From Sulfurovum sp. NBC37-1 (lineage in GTDB: Bacteria > Campylobacterota > Campylobacteria > Campylobacterales > Sulfurovaceae), in contig NC_009663.1 in NCBI RefSeq assembly GCF_000010345.1, positions 2,418,001 through 2,482,000 of the forward strand: a stretch of DNA of 64,000 nt. Direction: 5' to 3'. The position numbers and the translations under genes were made by a program. This document shows positions 7,553-61,285 of this stretch, piece by piece; position 1 is the stretch's first letter; each line of letters starts with the position of its first letter. The notes under the pieces were generated by a model. That model made no database searches. It had not been told where the DNA came from and saw only the letters and a program-made list of their open reading frames with translations.

Positions 7553-8628
7553 GCGTCTTTTTCTGTATGAGCAATACTCCACTCATTGAACGGCAACGCT
7601 TCAAAATGGAGCTTTTCAATGTCAAAGGCATAGCTGTTGGCTACCGTGACAATGGTGATCTTCCGGATACCATGTTTTTTATAAATGGAAAACTTGTTCT
7701 GCGATTTTACCCAGAGACTTTCTTCACTCTCAAAAGGAGCAGGGATAATAAGTTCATGTTCTTCAGTGACATACCCGTGTACGCCCAGTGTTTTAAATTG
7801 GATGCCGTGCTTTATAAGTGTAAGGGCGATCATGCTATCAAACTGGTTACCAAAAGACTGCTGGGCGGTGAGGTACTTAACAAAAGCGAAGTCGTACATG
7901 ATCATCTTCTTTCCGCTTCGCTTGATGGCATTGTCAATGAAATAGAGCAGTCCCTCTTCCTGAAAGCGCTTTATGGTACTGTAGACAAAATCTTTGGAGA
8001 TTCTGAAGTGCTCTTTGGTAAAACTGTATATCTGATGCGTGGTCATGGGCTGTGTGTTGTAGCGTGCGAGAATGAGGATAAGGGACTGTTCGTTGGGGCT
8101 GAACTGCTGCTGGAAGAACTGTTTCATAAAGAGCGTAGTGTTTTTGGTATGTTTTGCCATAGCAGGGAGGGTACCGGCCTTGAGAAAATGGTTGAATGCC
8201 ACAGTATCCGAACTCGCATTCTCAAAGGCGAAGAACTCCTCATAATCCAAAGGGAGAAGCTGGACCGGTACAAAACATGCATCATGCAGGGGAATACGGC
8301 TGATAACGATGAGTCGCTCCACAACAGGAAAATCGTCAATCATCCCCTCCTCGTAGTGGTCGAGTATCAGCTCTTTGATGTGGTATTCGTCCATATACGC
8401 CTGCAGGGGGAGTGTATCGAGTGTATTGAGGATAAGATTGGGATCTTCCAGGTCGATATAGAGTGTCACATCATCCCTCTCTTTGAGATAATCAAGTGCC
8501 AGAGCTGTTTTACCGCTTCCCCTAGCCCCGTAAAGATTGACATTGCCTTCAGCGGGGATGACTGTTTTTCGTAATATGAAATGGTCATTTTGGGGTGGAT
8601 GTTCATGATAATGTTCCAGTAGATCCAT
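7549..8628 (-). CDS. AAA ATPase of the AAA_14/DUF4143-like type
   Basis: A 359-residue P-loop ATPase. Residues ~29-45 hold the Walker A loop NLYGARGSGKTALAL; a DVTLYIDLEDP strand follows, and IKELILDHYEEG is a possible Walker B. The C-terminal half contains a winged-helix-like stretch (TTHQIYSFTKEHF) and a DUF4143-like nuclease-fold tail ending with WVKSQNKFSIYKKHGIRK. Such proteins are common and mostly uncharacterised. The start follows a GGAGA ribosome site. It lies between the ffs gene and the ribosomal operon and is transcribed away from the latter. Confidence 0.65.
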   Translation of the reverse strand: MDLLEHYHEHPPQNDHFILRKTVIPAEGNVNLYGARGSGKTALALDYLKERDDVTLYIDLEDPNLILNTLDTLPLQAYMDEYHIKELILDHYEEGMIDDFPVVERLIVISRIPLHDACFVPVQLLPLDYEEFFAFENASSDTVAFNHFLKAGTLPAMAKHTKNTTLFMKQFFQQQFSPNEQSLILILARYNTQPMTTHQIYSFTKEHFRISKDFVYSTIKRFQEEGLLYFIDNAIKRSGKKMIMYDFAFVKYLTAQQSFGNQFDSMIALTLIKHGIQFKTLGVHGYVTEEHELIIPAPFESEESLWVKSQNKFSIYKKHGIRKITIVTVANSYAFDIEKLHFEALPFNEWSIAHTEKDA

Positions 8629-53287: not shown

Positions 53288-53896
53288 TCAATACGGAGAG
53301 GCAACGGCCCTGTAAACCAGTGTATCGCCCTCATAGAACGGCTGATAGTATGAACTTCCACATCTTCTGTAACTGACGCCGCCGACATGAACTGTCGTAC
53401 AGGTAGAAGGCATCGTGGAAGCGGCAACAACAGAACCGATGGCCATACCTGTTGCAAAGGCGAGGATCGGCGCACCACGGTAATATCCGTAATGTCCATG
53501 CCCGTGATAATGCCCACCTCCGCCATAGTAACGGTGATTGACATTCACGTTCCTGTTGACGTTCCGGTTCACGTTTCTGTTGACATTTCTGTTCCGGTTC
53601 ACGTTCCTGTTCCTGTTTCTGGTGTTGGCGCGGTTGGCTGTTCTGTTCCGTGTATGCGCACGGTTTCCGCCTCTGTGGACGTTGCCTATTCTGGCACCAC
53701 CGCCCCTTCTGGCACCACCGCCGCCCCTTCTCGCTTCTGCCGTATTGAACAGTGAGACATCGAGGGCTGTAGGGAATGCGGTGAACCCATTATGGGCTGT
53801 CCGAATATCGGGTTTGACGCTTACCGAAGGAGAAAAGACACCTATGGCTACAGCGATAACTGCAAATTTGACTAAAAATCTATTATACTTTTTCAT
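53288..53896 (-). CDS. Exported Asn/Arg-repeat and Gly/His-rich protein
   Basis: 202 residues. An N-terminal hydrophobic segment (FLVKFAVIAVAIGVFSPSVS), then an Arg/Gly stretch, a run of NRNVNRNVNRN repeats (~90-120), a GGGGHYHGHGHYGYY segment that could bind metal, a short hydrophobic helix (APILAFATGMAIGSVVAAST) and a C-terminal domain with two Cys. This design is common in exported envelope proteins of unknown function. The 3' end overlaps nothing; the DUF2092-like gene lies 13 bases upstream on the same strand. Confidence 0.7.
   Translation of the reverse strand: MKKYNRFLVKFAVIAVAIGVFSPSVSVKPDIRTAHNGFTAFPTALDVSLFNTAEARRGGGGARRGGGARIGNVHRGGNRAHTRNRTANRANTRNRNRNVNRNRNVNRNVNRNVNRNVNVNHRYYGGGGHYHGHGHYGYYRGAPILAFATGMAIGSVVAASTMPSTCTTVHVGGVSYRRCGSSYYQPFYEGDTLVYRAVASPY
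53540..53625 (-). repeat. Short tandem repeats in the Asn/Arg-repeat gene
   Basis: Repeats of AACAGGAACGTGAACCGG-like units encode the NRNVNRN run. Repeat number may vary between strains by slippage. Confidence 0.6.
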
Positions 53897-53909: not shown

Positions 53910-54623
53910 TTAACTTGCCGGTTCTATCGAGATTTTGAAAGCACCTTTTGGTGCACTGAAGATGAAGTCGCTTTCCGGGAACTTCGGATCCAGCGTCCAT
54001 CTTATCGATGTGTTCTTTCTCGGTTTACCCTCCACATGGGTGTCTATGATGCTGTAGGCTTTGACCAGAGGCTTGTCGCCGGTAGCGATCCAGATATGCA
54101 CCTCTCCAGCCCTGTTTCGGAAAGCCACGTAGTCACACTCGGTCCCTGCGACATCGACCGTACCGAAATACTTGCCTTTGCTGAACTTCGCACGTTTGTG
54201 CATGTCGCTGTAGATCAGCGATGCCAGCGGCGGCGTGATACCGTAGCGTTCGAAGATATAATCCAGTGCCCCGTCTATGGTCTTAGGCACTTTGAGCTGT
54301 CCGTAATAGTTGAACTTGTGGTCCATCAGGGTGAAGATGCCGTCATTGACATAGACGCTTCTATCCTTGATGTCCCCTTTGGTATCAACACGCAGTTTGT
54401 CAGGTCTGTCAACCTTGACGGAGACATTTTGCTTATAGCTTTTTCCGTCTTTGGGATCCGTATCCGATACGACAGCACTGAAAGCATACCTGTCCATCCC
54501 ACCGATGTATTGGCTGGCATTGTCCAAGATCGACCGGGCTGACTTTTCCGCACCCATCAGTGCCGTACTTCCTAACAGAAGTCCCGCTCCTGCAAGAAAA
54601 AGAAGTTGTTTATGTATCTTCAT
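53910..54623 (-). CDS. DUF2092-like periplasmic protein
   Basis: 237 residues with a signal peptide (LLFLAGAGLLLGSTALMGAE). KSYKQNVSVKVDRPDKLRVD, and the segments DYVAFRNRAGEVHIWIATGD, KPLVKAYSI and the final SDFIFSAPKGAFKI resemble DUF2092, a LolA-like half-barrel. It probably binds lipid or a hydrophobic ligand in the periplasm. Its promoter (TATAAT at 54655-54660) is preceded by one of two identical operator-like repeats. Confidence 0.7.
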   Translation of the reverse strand: MKIHKQLLFLAGAGLLLGSTALMGAEKSARSILDNASQYIGGMDRYAFSAVVSDTDPKDGKSYKQNVSVKVDRPDKLRVDTKGDIKDRSVYVNDGIFTLMDHKFNYYGQLKVPKTIDGALDYIFERYGITPPLASLIYSDMHKRAKFSKGKYFGTVDVAGTECDYVAFRNRAGEVHIWIATGDKPLVKAYSIIDTHVEGKPRKNTSIRWTLDPKFPESDFIFSAPKGAFKISIEPAS

Positions 54624-54671
54624 ATTTCATCCTTTTGTTTGATATCTCATTTATATTATAGCCTAAAATGC

Positions 54672-54690
54672 TGTCACAAAATTGTCATTT
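54672..54690 (-). promoter_or_regulatory. Operator-like repeat upstream of the DUF2092-like gene
   Basis: On the minus strand AAATGACAATTTTGTGACA, holding two TGACA units 11 bases apart, as OmpR-family regulators like. It ends 11 bases before TATAAT. An exact copy at 54770-54788 serves the divergent gene. Confidence 0.65.
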
Positions 54691-54769
54691 CAAATAATGG
54701 CAAAAAATTTGGGGATAAAGTATTTAACTTTTCAGCGGCTCTTTCAGATAGACCGTTTTCCCTTCTTCT

Positions 54770-54788
54770 AAATGACAATTTTGTGACA
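54770..54788 (+). promoter_or_regulatory. Operator-like repeat upstream of the small repeat-protein gene
   Basis: AAATGACAATTTTGTGACA on the plus strand, identical over 19 bases to the site at 54672-54690 in reverse, and again exactly 11 bases before a -10 box (TACAAT, 54800-54805). Confidence 0.65.
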
Positions 54789-54839
54789 CTATTTTTAGTT
54801 ACAATACACATTGTAAAATACATTATACAAAGGAAAAAT

Positions 54840-55112
54840 ATGACAAGAATCATACTTATTACGGCGATCGCGGCAACAGGACTTTTTGCAAACTCTTTGA
54901 CAGATATGGCGACCAAGTCAATGACGGACAATGCAACCAAGTCAGTGACAGACAAAGCTAAGTCATCTGTAACAGATAAACTAAAAGATGATGCCATGAG
55001 TCAGGCTAAAGACAAAGCGGCAGATGTGGCTGCAGGTGAAGCTGAGAAAGCTGTTGGGAAAGAGACGCTCAAAAAAGAGACAGCCAAGTCAGCGATCAAA
55101 TCGGTGATCTAA
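54840..55112 (+). CDS. Small exported repeat protein
   Basis: 90 residues from the ATG at 54840, supported by AAAGGA before it; earlier in-frame starts run through the promoter. A signal peptide (MTRIILITAIAATGLFANS) precedes Lys/Asp/Ser repeats such as DMATKSMTDNATKSVTDKAK, predicted as a long amphipathic helix. It looks like small stress-induced periplasmic proteins, but no family is certain. Divergent from the DUF2092-like gene and 54 bases before the sensor-kinase gene region. Confidence 0.7.
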   Translation: MTRIILITAIAATGLFANSLTDMATKSMTDNATKSVTDKAKSSVTDKLKDDAMSQAKDKAADVAAGEAEKAVGKETLKKETAKSAIKSVI

Positions 55113-55204
55113 CTTTATAACAGAGATGGAAGAATCTTTTTGCATCTCTGGGGCTTACTAACTATGTGAACACCTCTAATCATTATTCTGATAAACTCTT
55201 ATTT

Positions 55205-56884
55205 ATGATAATCCTAAAACTATTTTTATTCTCTGCTTTTATTCTCTTCTCCTATGCACATGCAAATCTCGACCTCAGCCAAGATGAAAAAAACTATCTT
55301 AAAGAAAAAAAAGAGATCAAGGTATGTTTGAGCCCAAAGGGGCTGCCGCTTTATGGTTCCAAAGATCACAGGAAGATCGGTATTCTTCCCGAAGTGATGC
55401 ATCTGATAGAAGACAAAATGCCTGTGCCCCTGCGTTATGTTCCAGTCAAGGACTGGAAAGAGTGTATTGCTTTGAGCAAAAAGGGAACGGTAGACATTGC
55501 CGCTTTGATACTTGCTTCTCCCAACAGACATACACACCTTGTTCCCAGCAAAAAAGTCATAGAAGCCTCTCTCGGACTTGCAACAAAGATAACGGCACCG
55601 TTGACTGAGGATATATCAAAACTTGACATCAAAAGTATTGCATCCCTGAAAGGGCAGAAGAGTATTGCCGCCTTCGTAAAACAGAGGTTCCCTGAAGTAA
55701 AGGTCATCACTGTCAACAGTATCGATGAAGGACTCGACCTTGTCGCAAAAGGGAAAGCGGACGGGTATATAGATGAGACGTATACGCTGGCATACCATAT
55801 TCTCAATCTGTACAGTAATGAGCTGAAGATCATAGACCGGGTCAGTGAGAAACCTATGGCCGGTGCGTTGGGTGTTCGCAAGGATGAACCCCTTCTTTTG
55901 TCTGTCATGAATAAAGCGATCGATCAAATTGACCCGCAGAAAGTACGTGATATCGTCCATCGCTGGATATCGGTAAAGGTGGAAAAAGGGTTTAACTATG
56001 TACTTCTTGTACAGGTAACCGCTGTTTTTTTCCTGCTTATGCTGGTAAGTATTTACTGGATCAGAAAACTTGCCAAAGAGGTCGAAAAACGTAAATTTAT
56101 TGAAAATGAACTCAAAGAGCTGAATGAAAACCTTGAAGAGGAGATCTCTAAAAAAGTGGCGCTCCTGCACTACAAAGATGCCATACTGATGGAAAAAACA
56201 AAACTGGCGGCCATGGGTGAGATGATGGGCTCCATTGCCCATCAGTGGAGAAAGCCACTGAGTACGCTGCATATCAATATTGAGATGCTTGAGGCTGATT
56301 ATAGGGAAAATAGGGTTGATGAAAACTTCTTATCGACTTTTATCGAGAAAAACAGCCGTATCATCCAGTATATGTCTCGAACTATTGATGATTTTCAACA
56401 TTTTTACAGAATAGATAAAGAGAAAAAAATATTTGATGTAAGAAAAAAGATAGACGCTGTACTTGACCTGAAAATGTATCAGTTAGAGGAAAATGACATT
56501 ACTGTCACTATCAGTGGAGAGAGTTTTTCTACCTTGGGGTATGCCAGTGAGTTTCAGCAGGTCATACTCAACATCATTGGGAATGCAAAAGATGCACTGG
56601 TTGAAAAAGGTGTTGCCCATCCTACTATAGAAATAAAGATCTTTTACGAAGGGAACAGAGGGATCATACGCATTTCCGACAATGCAGGCGGCATAGATAT
56701 TGATATGATAAATAAGGTATTTGAACCTTATGTTACGAGTAAAGATTCATCCAATGGTACGGGACTCGGACTCTATATGTCTAAAATGATCATTGAAAAA
56801 AATATGCAGGGGAAACTGTCAATTGGAAATGTTGATGATGGTACAGAAGTAACAATAGAGCTGAGGAGGGAAAAAGATGAGTAA
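55205..56884 (+). CDS. Sensor histidine kinase with periplasmic solute-binding domain
   Basis: 559 residues from the ATG at 55205, which starts just before the signal peptide (MIILKLFLFSAFILFSYAHA); a GTG at 55166 is the alternative, neither with a ribosome site. Residues ~35-245 are an SBP_bac_3-type ligand domain (KVCLSPKGLPLYG), then one membrane helix (LLVQVTAVFFLLMLVSIYWI), a coiled coil, HisKA with the phospho-His in MGSIAHQWRKPLSTLHINIE, and the ATPase with NIIGNAKDAL and NGTGLGLYMSK. BvgS-like in sensing. It overlaps its response regulator by eight bases. Confidence 0.88.
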   Translation: MIILKLFLFSAFILFSYAHANLDLSQDEKNYLKEKKEIKVCLSPKGLPLYGSKDHRKIGILPEVMHLIEDKMPVPLRYVPVKDWKECIALSKKGTVDIAALILASPNRHTHLVPSKKVIEASLGLATKITAPLTEDISKLDIKSIASLKGQKSIAAFVKQRFPEVKVITVNSIDEGLDLVAKGKADGYIDETYTLAYHILNLYSNELKIIDRVSEKPMAGALGVRKDEPLLLSVMNKAIDQIDPQKVRDIVHRWISVKVEKGFNYVLLVQVTAVFFLLMLVSIYWIRKLAKEVEKRKFIENELKELNENLEEEISKKVALLHYKDAILMEKTKLAAMGEMMGSIAHQWRKPLSTLHINIEMLEADYRENRVDENFLSTFIEKNSRIIQYMSRTIDDFQHFYRIDKEKKIFDVRKKIDAVLDLKMYQLEENDITVTISGESFSTLGYASEFQQVILNIIGNAKDALVEKGVAHPTIEIKIFYEGNRGIIRISDNAGGIDIDMINKVFEPYVTSKDSSNGTGLGLYMSKMIIEKNMQGKLSIGNVDDGTEVTIELRREKDE

Positions 56885-57566
56885 AACAAAAGTGTTGAAC
56901 TTACTGTATGTTGAAGATGACGAAGCGCTCAGAGAGCAGTTTCTTCGTGTGCTCAAACCTGCATTTAATGAAGTCTATGAAGCTGCTGACGGTGTTGAGG
57001 CTTACGAGATGTACCAAACCTGTAAACCTGATCTGATGGTGGTCGATATCAATATACCAAAAATGAGTGGGCTTGAGTTGATAGAGAAGATAAGAAAAGA
57101 AGATGAAAACACACCGATCATGATCCTGAGTGCCTATTCTGACCGGGAAAAACTACTCAAAGCAGTGACTTTGGGGCTCTCACAGTATATGATCAAACCG
57201 GTTCCCTACAAAGAACTTCTTACATCACTTGAAAAAATGGCAGCCGGCTATGAGAAAAAGAAAAGTGCTGAGAATAATCTTCAGCTTCAAGGGCCTTATG
57301 TTTGGAGACAAGAGAGTCAAACACTTTTTTATGGAAATGATATGATCACTTTGACCAAACGTGAGCGTCAATTTTTAACACTGCTGACAGATAATCTCAA
57401 CCATATTGTAAACAAGGATGAGATCATACACTCTTTATGGGATTATGAGGTATGTGAAGATCCTTATAATGCCTTTGGACATTTTCTTAAAAGACTAAGA
57501 AAGAAACTCCCTGAAGCACTCATAGAAAATCTTTACGGTGAGGGATACCGCATCTCTTCTTCATAG
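56877..57566 (+). CDS. Response regulator, OmpR family
   Basis: 229 residues. Receiver domain: LLYVEDDEALREQFLRVLKP with the acidic pair, phospho-acceptor Asp in LMVVDINIPKMSGLEL, Lys in YMIKPVP. A winged-helix DNA-binding domain follows (ITLTKRERQFLTLLTDNLNH, and NAFGHFLKRLRKKL). GGAGGG ribosome site. Probably phosphorylated by the kinase encoded just before. Its target may include the paired repeats at 54672 and 54770; that is inference. Confidence 0.9.
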   Translation: MSKTKVLNLLYVEDDEALREQFLRVLKPAFNEVYEAADGVEAYEMYQTCKPDLMVVDINIPKMSGLELIEKIRKEDENTPIMILSAYSDREKLLKAVTLGLSQYMIKPVPYKELLTSLEKMAAGYEKKKSAENNLQLQGPYVWRQESQTLFYGNDMITLTKRERQFLTLLTDNLNHIVNKDEIIHSLWDYEVCEDPYNAFGHFLKRLRKKLPEALIENLYGEGYRISSS

Positions 57567-57754: not shown

Positions 57755-57827
57755 ATTTTATAAAATGACATTTTTCTGCCATTATGTTCTGTTATACTTT
57801 AGGATCTTAAAATCTAAAGGAAAATCT

Positions 57828-59405
57828 ATGAAAAAAACAACTTCAAAGTTACTGCTGGCTTTGAGTTTGGGTGTGGCTGCTGTAGCAATGCCAACTCAAG
57901 TTCTGGCTAAAAAACCAAACATTCTAGTCATGTGGGGGGATGATATAGGTATCTGGAATACAAGTGCCTACAACCGCGGAAGTATGGGGTACAAAACACC
58001 CAATATTGACTCTATTGCAAACGATGGTGCACTCTTTACAGATATGTATGCACAGCAGTCCTGTACTGCAGGACGTGCATCATTCATTTTGGGTGAACAA
58101 CCATTTAGAACAGGACTGCTTACTATTGGTATGCCTGGATCTGATCATGGTATTCCTGACTGGGCACCTACCATTGCTGATCTGCTTAAAGATCAGGGAT
58201 ATGCGACAGGTCAGTTTGGTAAAAATCACTTAGGTGACCAGGACAAACACTTGCCAACAGCACACGGTTTTGATGAGTTCTTTGGAAATCTTTACCACCT
58301 GAACGCAGAAGAAGAACCGGAAACATACTACTATCCAAAAGATCCAGAGTTTAAAAAGAAGTTTGGACCACGTGGTGTACTGCATTCTTTTGCAGACGGT
58401 AAGATAGAAGACACAGGACCATTGACTAAAAAAAGAATGGAAACGGTAGATGGTGAGTTTGGTGCAGCGGCAAAAGACTTCATGACACGTGCAGTTAAAG
58501 CTGACAAACCTTTCTTTGTATGGATGAACTTCACACGTACACATGTATGGACTCACTTAAAGAGTAAATACCAAGGTATTACAGGTATTGGTCTTTACCC
58601 TGATGCAATGGCAGAGCTTGATGACATGGTGGGTGGGTTCCTTGACCATATCAAAAAACTTGGTGTTGAAGATAACACTATCGTTATCTTCTCTACAGAT
58701 AACGGTGCAGAGAAATTTACGTGGCCTGATGGTGGTGCTTCACCATATAGAGGAGAAAAAGGTACGACTTGGGAAGGCGGTATGAGAATTCCACAAATGG
58801 TTAAATGGCCAGGCACGATCAAACCGGGAACCATCTACAATGACATCATGTCTCAGGAAGACTGGATGCCTACACTTCTTGCAGCTGCAGGTGTACCTGA
58901 TGTAAAAGAGAAACTTGCTTCTAAAGAGGGTATGAAAGCCAATGGTAAGAAATTTAGAGTTCACCTGGATGGATATAACTTCTTGCCATACTTTGAAGGT
59001 AAAGAGAAAAAAGGTCCTCGTAGAGAGATCTACTATTTCGCAGCAAGCGGTATGCTTAATGCTATTCGTATAGATGACTTTAAAGTGGCATTTGCTATTG
59101 AAGAGGGTGCTATCAACGAAGCCTATAGAAAAGTTCCGGCTTGGCCTTTGATTACCAACTTAAGAGCTGATCCATTTGAACATGCAAGTGATGGTTCAGG
59201 AATGTACCTCAAATGGTATGCAGACAATATGTGGATGATGGTTCCGGCTCAATCATTTGTTAAAAAATTCTTTGACACGATTCCTGATTATCCATTCCAG
59301 TCAGGATCTTCACTTTCTGCTGGTAACATCGGATATGGCACGATTGAGATGCAAAAAGCTAAAGGTGGTTTGAAAAAACTAATGGACGCTACTACACTTA
59401 ACTAA
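57828..59405 (+). CDS. Arylsulfatase, exported
   Basis: 525 residues from the ATG at 57828 (AAAGGAAA before it, signal peptide LALSLGVAAVAMPTQVLAK). PNILVMWGDDIG holds the metal-binding Asp pair; QQSCTAGRASFILGEQPFRT carries the formylglycine Cys in the C-x-A-x-R motif; FSTDNGAEKFTWPDGG gives further metal ligands. It cuts sulfate esters in the periplasm. A maturation enzyme is not seen nearby. Longer upstream frames run through the MITE-like element and are rejected. Confidence 0.92.
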   Translation: MKKTTSKLLLALSLGVAAVAMPTQVLAKKPNILVMWGDDIGIWNTSAYNRGSMGYKTPNIDSIANDGALFTDMYAQQSCTAGRASFILGEQPFRTGLLTIGMPGSDHGIPDWAPTIADLLKDQGYATGQFGKNHLGDQDKHLPTAHGFDEFFGNLYHLNAEEEPETYYYPKDPEFKKKFGPRGVLHSFADGKIEDTGPLTKKRMETVDGEFGAAAKDFMTRAVKADKPFFVWMNFTRTHVWTHLKSKYQGITGIGLYPDAMAELDDMVGGFLDHIKKLGVEDNTIVIFSTDNGAEKFTWPDGGASPYRGEKGTTWEGGMRIPQMVKWPGTIKPGTIYNDIMSQEDWMPTLLAAAGVPDVKEKLASKEGMKANGKKFRVHLDGYNFLPYFEGKEKKGPRREIYYFAASGMLNAIRIDDFKVAFAIEEGAINEAYRKVPAWPLITNLRADPFEHASDGSGMYLKWYADNMWMMVPAQSFVKKFFDTIPDYPFQSGSSLSAGNIGYGTIEMQKAKGGLKKLMDATTLN

Positions 59406-59521: not shown

Positions 59522-60301
59522 ATGAAAAAAAAGATTGTGAGACTACTACTTGCGTCACTTGTATTGGGTACAGCATCAATGAATTTAGCACAGGCTGATG
59601 AAAGTAATGAATTGCAGCAGAGTTTATCAATTTATGGTTGGCTGCCAAGTTTAGATGGGAATTTGAAATATACCATACCTGGAAGTGGCAGTGAACCTGA
59701 CCGAGAGGGAGAATCCGGCATTGCAGATGCACTTGATATGGTTTTAATGGGAAATTATGAGTTGAGAAAAGATAAATTTTCATTCCTTGCCGACATGGTT
59801 TACTTGAAAATGTCTGCCTCACAGGAAACAACGATCAGTACACCGAATTTTCCTGCTATACCTGATGTGAATGTTAGAGCAGAACAGGAATTGACTGCCT
59901 GGTTACTTGGATTCTACGGTGGATACAATGTACTGGATAATGGTACATTTAAAATGGACGCTATAGGTGGTCTTCGTTACTTCTCTTTAGGGTTGGATGC
60001 TTCATTCTCTTTAAATGGCAGAAGTATTGGTGTATCACCTTCTATAGAAAACTATGACGGTGTTGTGGGTATTCGAGGGACATATACTATCGATGAAAAT
60101 TGGTATTTACCTTATCATTTTGATATTGGGGCAGGTGATTCCGACTTGACATGGCAGGCAAGTGCCAGTGTCGGATATATGTTCAACTGGGGTGATGTAT
60201 TGCTGACCTACCGTTATATGCATTATAGCTTTGGTGAAGAGAACTTCGTCAATGACTTTGACCTCTATGGCCCTAAAATCGGTCTTGTATTTCATTTTTA
60301 A
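59522..60301 (+). CDS. Outer-membrane beta-barrel protein
   Basis: 259 residues. Signal peptide (LLLASLVLGTASMNLAQADE), then alternating strands such as QQSLSIYGWLPSLDGNLKYT, LTAWLLGFYGGYNVLDNGTF and a final GPKIGLVFHF ending in Phe, typical of barrels. Function unknown. It opens a group of four genes (OMP, HAD phosphatase, OMP, OMP) behind the arylsulfatase. Confidence 0.78.
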   Translation: MKKKIVRLLLASLVLGTASMNLAQADESNELQQSLSIYGWLPSLDGNLKYTIPGSGSEPDREGESGIADALDMVLMGNYELRKDKFSFLADMVYLKMSASQETTISTPNFPAIPDVNVRAEQELTAWLLGFYGGYNVLDNGTFKMDAIGGLRYFSLGLDASFSLNGRSIGVSPSIENYDGVVGIRGTYTIDENWYLPYHFDIGAGDSDLTWQASASVGYMFNWGDVLLTYRYMHYSFGEENFVNDFDLYGPKIGLVFHF

Positions 60302-60310
60302 GGAGTTAGT

Positions 60311-61285
60311 ATGAAAAAAGTATTGTTTACGTTATGTGTGTTAAGTGTGTCTGTGTTCGCTACAAATGTGAGTGTGTTACCGTCATGGAACGAGGGGGCG
60401 GCCAAAAATAGTATTGTCGAGTATGTAAAAAGCACTACAGATAAGAACAGCCCTGATTTTATTCCCAAAGAAGATCGTATTGCAGTATTTGACAATGATG
60501 GTACATTGTGGTCTGAACAACCTGCCTATTTCCAGCTCTTCTTTGCTATGGATAGAGTCAAAGCTTTAGCCTCCCAACACCCGGAGTGGAAAACAACACA
60601 ACCTTTCCAAGCTGTGCTTGAAAATGACATGAAAGCATTGATGGCAGGAGGCACAAAAGGTCTTCTTGAATTGGTAGTAGCTACTCACAGCGGCATGACG
60701 GATGAAGCATTTGACAAAGAAGTCAAAGAGTGGATAAACAGTGCGAAACACCCACGTTTTAACCGTCTCTATAAAGATTTGGTCTTTCAACCCATGTTAG
60801 AACTTTTAACGTATCTGCGTGCCAACGGTTTTAAAACATTCATCGTCTCAGGTGGTGGTATAGACTTTATGCGTCCGTTTGCATCTGAAGTGTATGGCAT
60901 ACCGTCTTATCAGATTGTAGGGTCTTCCATGAAGGTAACATATAAAGATAAACATATTTATAGAGAAGCAAAACTGGGTGCCATTGATGACAAAGAAGGC
61001 AAGCCCGTCCATATACATTACCATATAGGTCAACGCCCGGTAGCAGCATTTGGAAACTCTGATGGTGACTTTGCGATGATGGAATATACAGAAGCCAATA
61101 AACAGTACAAAACCTTTGAACTGTATGTACATCATACCGATGAAAAAAGAGAGTGGGCGTATGACAGAAAATCACACGTAGGAAAGCTTGACAAAGGCCT
61201 GGACTATGCAAAAGAGCATAACTGGACGATTGTCGATATGAAAAATGACTGGAAAGTGGTCTATCCGTTCGAGTTGAAAAAGTAG
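60311..61285 (+). CDS. Periplasmic HAD-superfamily phosphatase
   Basis: 324 residues. Signal peptide MKKVLFTLCVLSVSVFATNV. HAD motifs: IAVFDNDGTLWSEQ (motif I, two Asp), FIVSGGGIDFMRP (motif II Ser), the Lys in the linker, and AAFGNSDGDFAMM (motif III). Related to phosphoserine-phosphatase-like enzymes; as an exported form it may release phosphate from small organic phosphates. Nine bases after the barrel gene. Confidence 0.85.
   Translation: MKKVLFTLCVLSVSVFATNVSVLPSWNEGAAKNSIVEYVKSTTDKNSPDFIPKEDRIAVFDNDGTLWSEQPAYFQLFFAMDRVKALASQHPEWKTTQPFQAVLENDMKALMAGGTKGLLELVVATHSGMTDEAFDKEVKEWINSAKHPRFNRLYKDLVFQPMLELLTYLRANGFKTFIVSGGGIDFMRPFASEVYGIPSYQIVGSSMKVTYKDKHIYREAKLGAIDDKEGKPVHIHYHIGQRPVAAFGNSDGDFAMMEYTEANKQYKTFELYVHHTDEKREWAYDRKSHVGKLDKGLDYAKEHNWTIVDMKNDWKVVYPFELKK

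Follow-up and report, generated by a model that had tools for sequence, protein, structure and literature searches.

Two identical predicted operators face opposite ways in a divergent promoter

The window analysed here is a 64,000-nucleotide stretch (positions 2418001-2482000) of the single-contig genome of Sulfurovum sp. NBC37-1 (2,562,277 bases; labelled G000). In one divergent promoter region the same 19-mer stands once in each direction beside the genes of a two-component system, raising the question of which regulator recognises these sites and which genes it serves. The two exact copies of AAATGACAATTTTGTGACA lie on opposite strands, at 54672-54690 (minus strand; operator 1) and 54770-54788 (plus strand; operator 2), 98 bp apart centre to centre; the original prediction had located both correctly to the base. 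It had also described TGACA repeated at 11-base spacing (TGACA-N6-TGACA) within both copies, and a distance of 11 bases from each copy to a -10 box. Both features are present in the sequence, the -10 boxes being TATAAT (54655-54660, minus strand) for operator 1 and TACAAT (54800-54805, plus strand) for operator 2.

Operator 1 lies upstream of a gene encoding a 237-aa periplasmic DUF2092 protein (53910-54623, minus strand; Pfam PF09865, 7.3e-46), a family described as related to the lipoprotein carrier LolA in the available text of PMC4520260. Downstream of this gene, an ORF encodes an exported Gly/Asn/Arg-rich protein of 202 aa (53288-53896, minus strand), found beside DUF2092 in genome G015 too (63% identity). 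Operator 2 lies upstream of an ORF for a small exported repeat protein of 90 aa (54840-55112, plus strand), and possibly serves the kinase and regulator genes that follow. A Pfam search gave no match for the small protein; in G012 a protein 42% identical to it is encoded next to the kinase. In the window, a hairpin at 55121-55150 (z-score of the region -3.3), lacking a T-run, separates the small-protein gene from the kinase gene and may determine how much small protein is made relative to kinase.

Allowing up to 3 mismatches, the 19-mer had 3 copies in the window, and none of 100 shuffled sequences contained 3. Beyond the operators, the two divergent promoters agreed at 13 of 45 upstream bases (null mean 13.1) and are thus not plain copies of each other; a long inverted duplication of the promoter was rejected, as the regions upstream of the operators showed no similarity. 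Downstream of the operators, 29 of 56 bases agreed (null mean 18.7, P 0.0008), and this matching part included the -10 and ribosome-site region. That the two copies are identical, and those of relatives are not, would fit a chance match or a recent short inverted duplication devoid of regulatory meaning. We regard this as highly improbable, since only 0.04 matches were expected against the 3 copies found, the upstream similarity ends at the operator, and both the third copy and the sites of six other genomes keep their position.

A third predicted operator precedes a sulfatase gene

The third copy, AAATGACATTTTTCTGCCA (57763-57781, plus strand; operator 3), carries 3 mismatches to the 19-mer and is new with respect to the first reading of this DNA, which named neither the site nor a sulfatase target. 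It stands 11 bases ahead of a -10 box, TATACT (57793-57798, plus strand), and 46 bases ahead of the ATG (57828) of a gene encoding a 525-aa sulfatase (57828-59405, plus strand; Pfam PF00884, 1.5e-45). Two further genes follow on the same strand: an ORF for an outer-membrane beta-barrel-like protein (59522-60301, plus strand), without a match in a Pfam search of the window copy, and a gene for an exported HAD-family phosphatase (60311-61285, plus strand; Pfam PF12710). Judging from spacing and strand, the barrel-like protein and the phosphatase are probably both encoded on the sulfatase transcript. When sigma-70-type -35/-10 pairs were searched at all three -10 boxes, none was found to use any of them. 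Residues 79-83 of the sulfatase (window 58062-58076) read CTAGR, which resembles the formylglycine motif in an alanine-type form.

The adjacent genes encode a sensor kinase and an OmpR-type regulator

The sensor histidine kinase gene (55166-56884, plus strand), with a periplasmic SBP_bac_3 domain identified by Pfam, may have its true start at an ATG at 55205. It overlaps the gene for a 229-aa response regulator (56877-57566, plus strand), as in OmpR/PhoB-family two-component systems with the kinase in the same operon. The pair had been described as starting within 0.4 kb; the kinase gene begins 0.38-0.42 kb from operator 2 (55166 or 55205 as the start), and the regulator gene itself 2.1 kb away. 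The assignment of this regulator to the OmpR type was borne out by Pfam matches to Response_reg (88.8 bits) and Trans_reg_C (45.8 bits), both above cut-off; the protein combines a receiver with a Trans_reg_C winged helix, and the phospho-acceptor D57 and K107 were invariant in all 8 aligned regulators. Its relatives in the PDB include DrrD (1kgs), PrrA, KdpE and BasR. In the kinase, the HATPase domain matched at 1e-18, HisKA scored 25.8 bits, slightly below its cut-off of 26.9, and His345 (numbering of the first row of the alignment) was invariant in 4 of 4 aligned kinases.

BvgA and EvgA, the partners of the sensor kinases BvgS and EvgS, are NarL-type regulators. The sensor domain of the window kinase resembles those of BvgS (4q0c, 9.4e-27) and EvgS (6.1e-17), but a Pfam search reported neither a receiver nor an Hpt domain in this kinase, and its partner has an OmpR-type winged helix.

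The operator accompanies orthologous kinase and regulator pairs in other genomes

Among 60 genomes (G000 included), a full-length regulator more than 50% identical to that of the window was present only in G005, G010 and G012 besides G000; G019 has a 117-residue receiver with 51% identity. A kinase-profile scan of named genomes added BB14, BB41 and GLR145 among the matches listed, GLR145 being the same as G064 according to its site and regulator. The genomes with close kinase relatives, among the matches listed, were Sulfurovum, Sulfurovaceae and Campylobacterota metagenome genomes. Kinases of four further loci (L137, L138, L140 and L197; 26-35% identity) were left out of the orthologue count.

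The operator was found before the gene that follows the regulator in 7 of 7 genomes with an orthologous pair (there being at least seven such genomes), in agreement with the prediction that the sites serve the adjacent OmpR-type regulator. This gene encodes the sulfatase in six genomes. The order kinase, regulator, operator, sulfatase was seen in G005, G010, G012, BB14 and BB41; in GLR145 the order was kinase, regulator, operator, HAD gene. The operator thus precedes the sulfatase at 6 of 6 junctions including that of the window, and 5 of 5 other genomes with this junction have it at the corresponding position; their kinases are 56-61%, their regulators 46-55% and their sulfatases 77-87% identical to those of the window. 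Across the six sulfatase promoters the operator was 78% identical between genomes, against 36% for the 40 bases upstream, 55% for the spacer and 39% for the 30 bases after the -10 box. These data suggest that the sulfatase is the core, best-conserved target of the regulator. Phylogenetic analysis placed the seven pair regulators in one clade (support 99/99) that excluded the 22 other Trans_reg_C proteins of G000. A near-invariant stretch shared by the seven, H[LF]LKRL[RK]KK[LF]P, differs from that of a sister regulator in G007 and presumably lies at the recognition helix.

Additional sites were found around some of these pairs. G012 has the operator ahead of its small-repeat-protein gene as well, and two oppositely oriented operators between two sulfatase genes (11059, minus; 11156, plus), indicating that the two-faced layout recurs. 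In G010 an operator is followed by a barrel-like gene (54% identical to that of the window) and then by the kinase. Ahead of the kinase gene in BB14 and BB41 no site reached the threshold, indicating that self-regulation is not conserved.

The proposal that DUF2092 and the small exported protein are joint targets was supported, within limits: the small protein has an operator in G012 too, but DUF2092 has a clear operator in G000 only. At 22 further places with a DUF2092 homologue (one in G000, 21 in 12 other genomes), no exact repeat was present within the preceding 260 bases, and the DUF2092 orthologue of G015 (79% identity) lacks the repeat. In G007 a degenerate repeat (1 mismatch, N12, AATTAT; locus L060) lies directly before one DUF2092 homologue. 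One-mismatch repeats in L057, L060 and L065 were not counted as DUF2092 operators, only that of L060 being directly before the gene. In a G007 locus (L128), the gene immediately following the site at 7834 was considered as a possible DUF2092 N-terminus, for which Pfam and two pairwise comparisons gave no support. Among the genomes examined, no relative was found to carry the DUF2092, small-protein, kinase and regulator genes together.

Spacing, flanking bases and control promoters

Seven of the 8 sites from other genomes came from scans fixing both N6 and N11, and that of G005 was identified by visual inspection, so that the N6/N11 geometry of all 11 sites is largely by construction. To offset this circularity, a rescan allowed repeat gaps of 2-10 and -10 distances of 6-16 (99 combinations). 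In the seven pair loci (84 kb), N6/N11 accounted for 10 of 20 matches and any other combination for at most 2; the ten loci lacking the pair (150 kb) gave 12 matches, 1 of them with N6/N11. This preference places two half-sites one helical turn apart in the position of a -35 element and at a fixed distance from the -10 box, as in class II activation. Bases outside the search pattern used to find the relatives' sites were also kept: counting the three sites of the window, AAA before the first repeat was retained in 11, 10 and 10 of 11 sites, and TTTT between the repeats in 11, 9, 11 and 10.

A matrix built from the 8 other-genome sites ranked operators 2, 1 and 3 first, second and third in the window, a ranking that is partly circular because the 8 had themselves been picked for their similarity to the window sites, 7 of them with N6/N11 fixed. 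For operator plus -10 box, the scores were 34.5, 31.7 and 24.8, followed by 6.4 for the next place and 5.8 for the best of 12 simulated windows. For the operator alone they were 27.7, 24.3 and 19.0, followed by 16.2 (best simulated, 16.3), which leaves a narrow gap for the third site. Loci with distant regulators or none contained no operator plus -10 site scoring 9 or more, except L138 (10.0, weak) and L128 (two TGATAG-type sites).

Sulfatase promoters away from the pair lacked the operator in 11 of 11 cases (best score 8.6). The genes concerned include two with 83-84% identity, one in G032 and the other a broken additional copy in G005, and two 59% copies in G012 with a half-operator only. 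Seven of these 11 promoters are in genomes that have the regulator (five in G012, one in G005, one in G000) and four in genomes without it; the absence of the operator thus indicates that those copies are not targets, rather than that the motif was lost with the regulator. Runs of C were observed in promoters of sulfatase copies at L214, L218 and L222 (G032, G012), and at L218 and L222 the run occupies the place of the operator's upstream half.

Position and conservation, more than rarity, define the set of sites

The bare TGACA-N6-TGACA motif is not rare in G000, with 10 occurrences in 2.56 Mb against 5 for a reversed-pattern control. The genome scan for this motif before a -10 box, recommended with the original prediction, returned 3 places against 0 in the control when N11-TANNNT was required exactly; allowing 2 mismatches gave 101 against 90, no real excess. 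We conclude from these counts that rarity alone does not define the regulon, and that position and conservation do. Searching G000 with a longer pattern and a tolerance of 3 mismatches gave 5 places, against 2 in the control: the two divergent operators, the sulfatase site, a site before an AI-2E permease gene and one at G000:C1:2536764, which lies inside an ORF and was taken as chance.

Across the genus, a degenerate form of the operator pattern, allowing 2 mismatches at most, matched 28 places, distributed over 20 of 78 genomes; the reversed control gave 3. With up to 1 mismatch, a match occurred in 5 of 5 genomes of the regulator clade and in 7 of 73 others. Eight matches among the 78 genomes were exact, six of them in regulator-clade genomes, one before an AI-2E permease gene (G068) and one before a gene for a 118-aa exported protein (G072). 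The exact core pattern gave 42 places over 60 genomes, some within genes, against 6 in the reversed control.

Proposed activation by the local regulator

Based on the sequences of the sites, their geometry, their co-occurrence with the pair and their conservation, we consider it highly likely that the 19-mers are sites of the local OmpR/PhoB-type regulator, predicted to activate the divergent genes and the sulfatase operon by a class II mechanism. The kinase (55166-56884) would sense a periplasmic signal through its BvgS/EvgS-like domain and phosphorylate the regulator (56877-57566), each 19-mer being one site for a head-to-tail dimer of this protein. Bound to TGACA-N6-TGACA, the phosphorylated dimer would cover the -35 region, 11 bases before the -10 box, a position from which it is expected to recruit RNA polymerase. 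At the divergent promoter one dimer would face each way, and a third would stand before the sulfatase. The signal would turn on DUF2092 together with its partner protein, as well as the small exported protein, the sulfatase-barrel-HAD operon and possibly also the kinase/regulator operon itself.

The same occupancy could have the opposite effect, the local regulator binding over the -35 position and blocking RNA polymerase until phosphorylation, or the two facing operators being bridged. In the available text of PMC10294691, PhoB is described as an activator or a repressor according to position, and the overlap with the -35 position and the 98 bp between the two operators would both be compatible with such repression. 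We nevertheless find it unlikely: the preference for 11 bases between operator and -10 box and the lack of a usable -35 fit recruitment, 98 bp amounts to 9.3 turns at 10.5 bp and not a whole number, and at five of the six sulfatase junctions a single operator was found (G012 has the facing pair).

If the local regulator is the activator, a kinase/regulator pair of Sulfurovum-type Campylobacterota that appears to be uncharacterised gains a likely regulon and a predicted operator. A single periplasmic signal would then link the highly conserved sulfatase with a group of envelope proteins whose role is unknown. The conserved promoter unit of 37 bp lends itself to direct testing. A literature search of limited coverage found no earlier description of this Sulfurovum regulon or operator; the mechanism would be ordinary for the OmpR/PhoB family, and the regulon (the set of target genes) is apparently undescribed.

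Comparison with PhoB and HP1043

The E. coli phoA promoter reads TGTCA-N6-TGTCA-N11-TATAGT, the same geometry as that of the window operators and their -10 boxes. The half-site differs, being TGACA in the direction of transcription in the window and TGTCA in the Pho box. PhoB-type regulators bind 11-nucleotide direct-repeat units head to tail (PMC4415409, available text), and PhoB requires strict spacing to core promoter elements (PMC10294691, available text), features that the OmpR/PhoB-family regulator of the window would share. Assignment to PhoB and the Pho regulon proper was rejected on the half-site and on a score of 86.5 bits against a PhoB equivalog cut-off of 296.2, and the neighbours scanned with Pfam included no phosphate-uptake gene. 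Within the same phylum, Helicobacter pylori HP1043, also of the OmpR/PhoB family, binds two hemi-sites with 11-bp periodicity that overlap the promoter in an activator-type placement (PMC8345958, available text). The HP1043 consensus is TTTAAG-N5-TTTAAG, and HP1043 has a degenerate receiver and functions independently of phosphorylation, whereas the window regulator keeps D57 and an adjacent kinase.

Other promoters share the layout

The AI-2E permease promoter of G000 (G000:C1:1380845-1380880; L011 1501-1536), TGACAGATTTTTGACAG, has a TGACAG-type repeat, N11 and the -10 box TATAAT. TGAYA repeats at the same spacing precede the AI-2E permease gene in G000, G007, G012, G015, G022, G030, G032 and G068, and the repeat was counted in 6 of 14 promoters compared. 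The sites of G015 and G022, both without the local regulator, score 24.9 and 29.2, so the operator matrix is not specific to this regulator. In two genomes with the local regulator, G005 and G010, no repeat of this kind was found upstream of the AI-2E permease gene. The permease was rejected as a fourth target, since some genomes retain its site without having the regulator and two that have the regulator lack the site. The repeats in genomes without the local pair indicate that other regulators use the layout, one of them likely at the AI-2E permease, and the layout is probably common to several regulators.

One of these others, for example the one serving the AI-2E promoter, might then bind the window operators as well, leaving the neighbouring pair to act elsewhere. 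G000 has 23 Trans_reg_C matches (22 above cut-off), and the products of the 22 other places could each be candidates; the occurrence of the same layout at AI-2E promoters in genomes that lack the local regulator points the same way. We judge this improbable, as the sulfatase operator is present at 6 of 6 promoters beside the local pair and 0 of 11 away from it, most AI-2E sites differ from the sulfatase set in having TGAYAGA half-sites, and the repeat is missing before the AI-2E permease in G005 and G010 although both have the local regulator. Recognition by the local regulator remains our preferred reading.

Similar arrangements were observed elsewhere. The sister system of G007 (L128 4950-8121) comprises a 7TMR-DISM kinase and a regulator 44% identical to that of the window, with TGATAG-type repeats on both sides of the pair, before an OmpA-like barrel gene and an exported protein. 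Several Sulfurovum-type genomes have TGACAC-type repeats, spaced 11 bases from TATAAT, upstream of genes for LemA-like proteins and 92-aa glycine-zipper lipoproteins (L101, L115, L104, L284 and L291; gene names from our reading of the sequences), and the LemA-like gene of G000 (about 1031518) has a degenerate TGACAC-type form. We tentatively suggest that several paralogous Sulfurovum OmpR-family regulators may share a rigid grammar, TGAYA-N6-TGAYA-N11-TATAAT, with only a small number of flanking bases to tell them apart: TGACAnTTTTnNGACA in the sulfatase system, TGAYAGannTTTGAYAGa for AI-2E and beside the G007 sister pair, and TGACAC for LemA and the glycine-zipper lipoproteins. If true, these promoters would form a natural series of duplicated regulators and sites diverging together. 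Pho-box-like promoters (TGTCA-N6-TGTCA-N11) were also seen in G000, at 2106722-2106754 (minus strand) and at G000:C1:2115985-2116017 (minus strand), the latter preceding a glycine-zipper lipoprotein-like gene.
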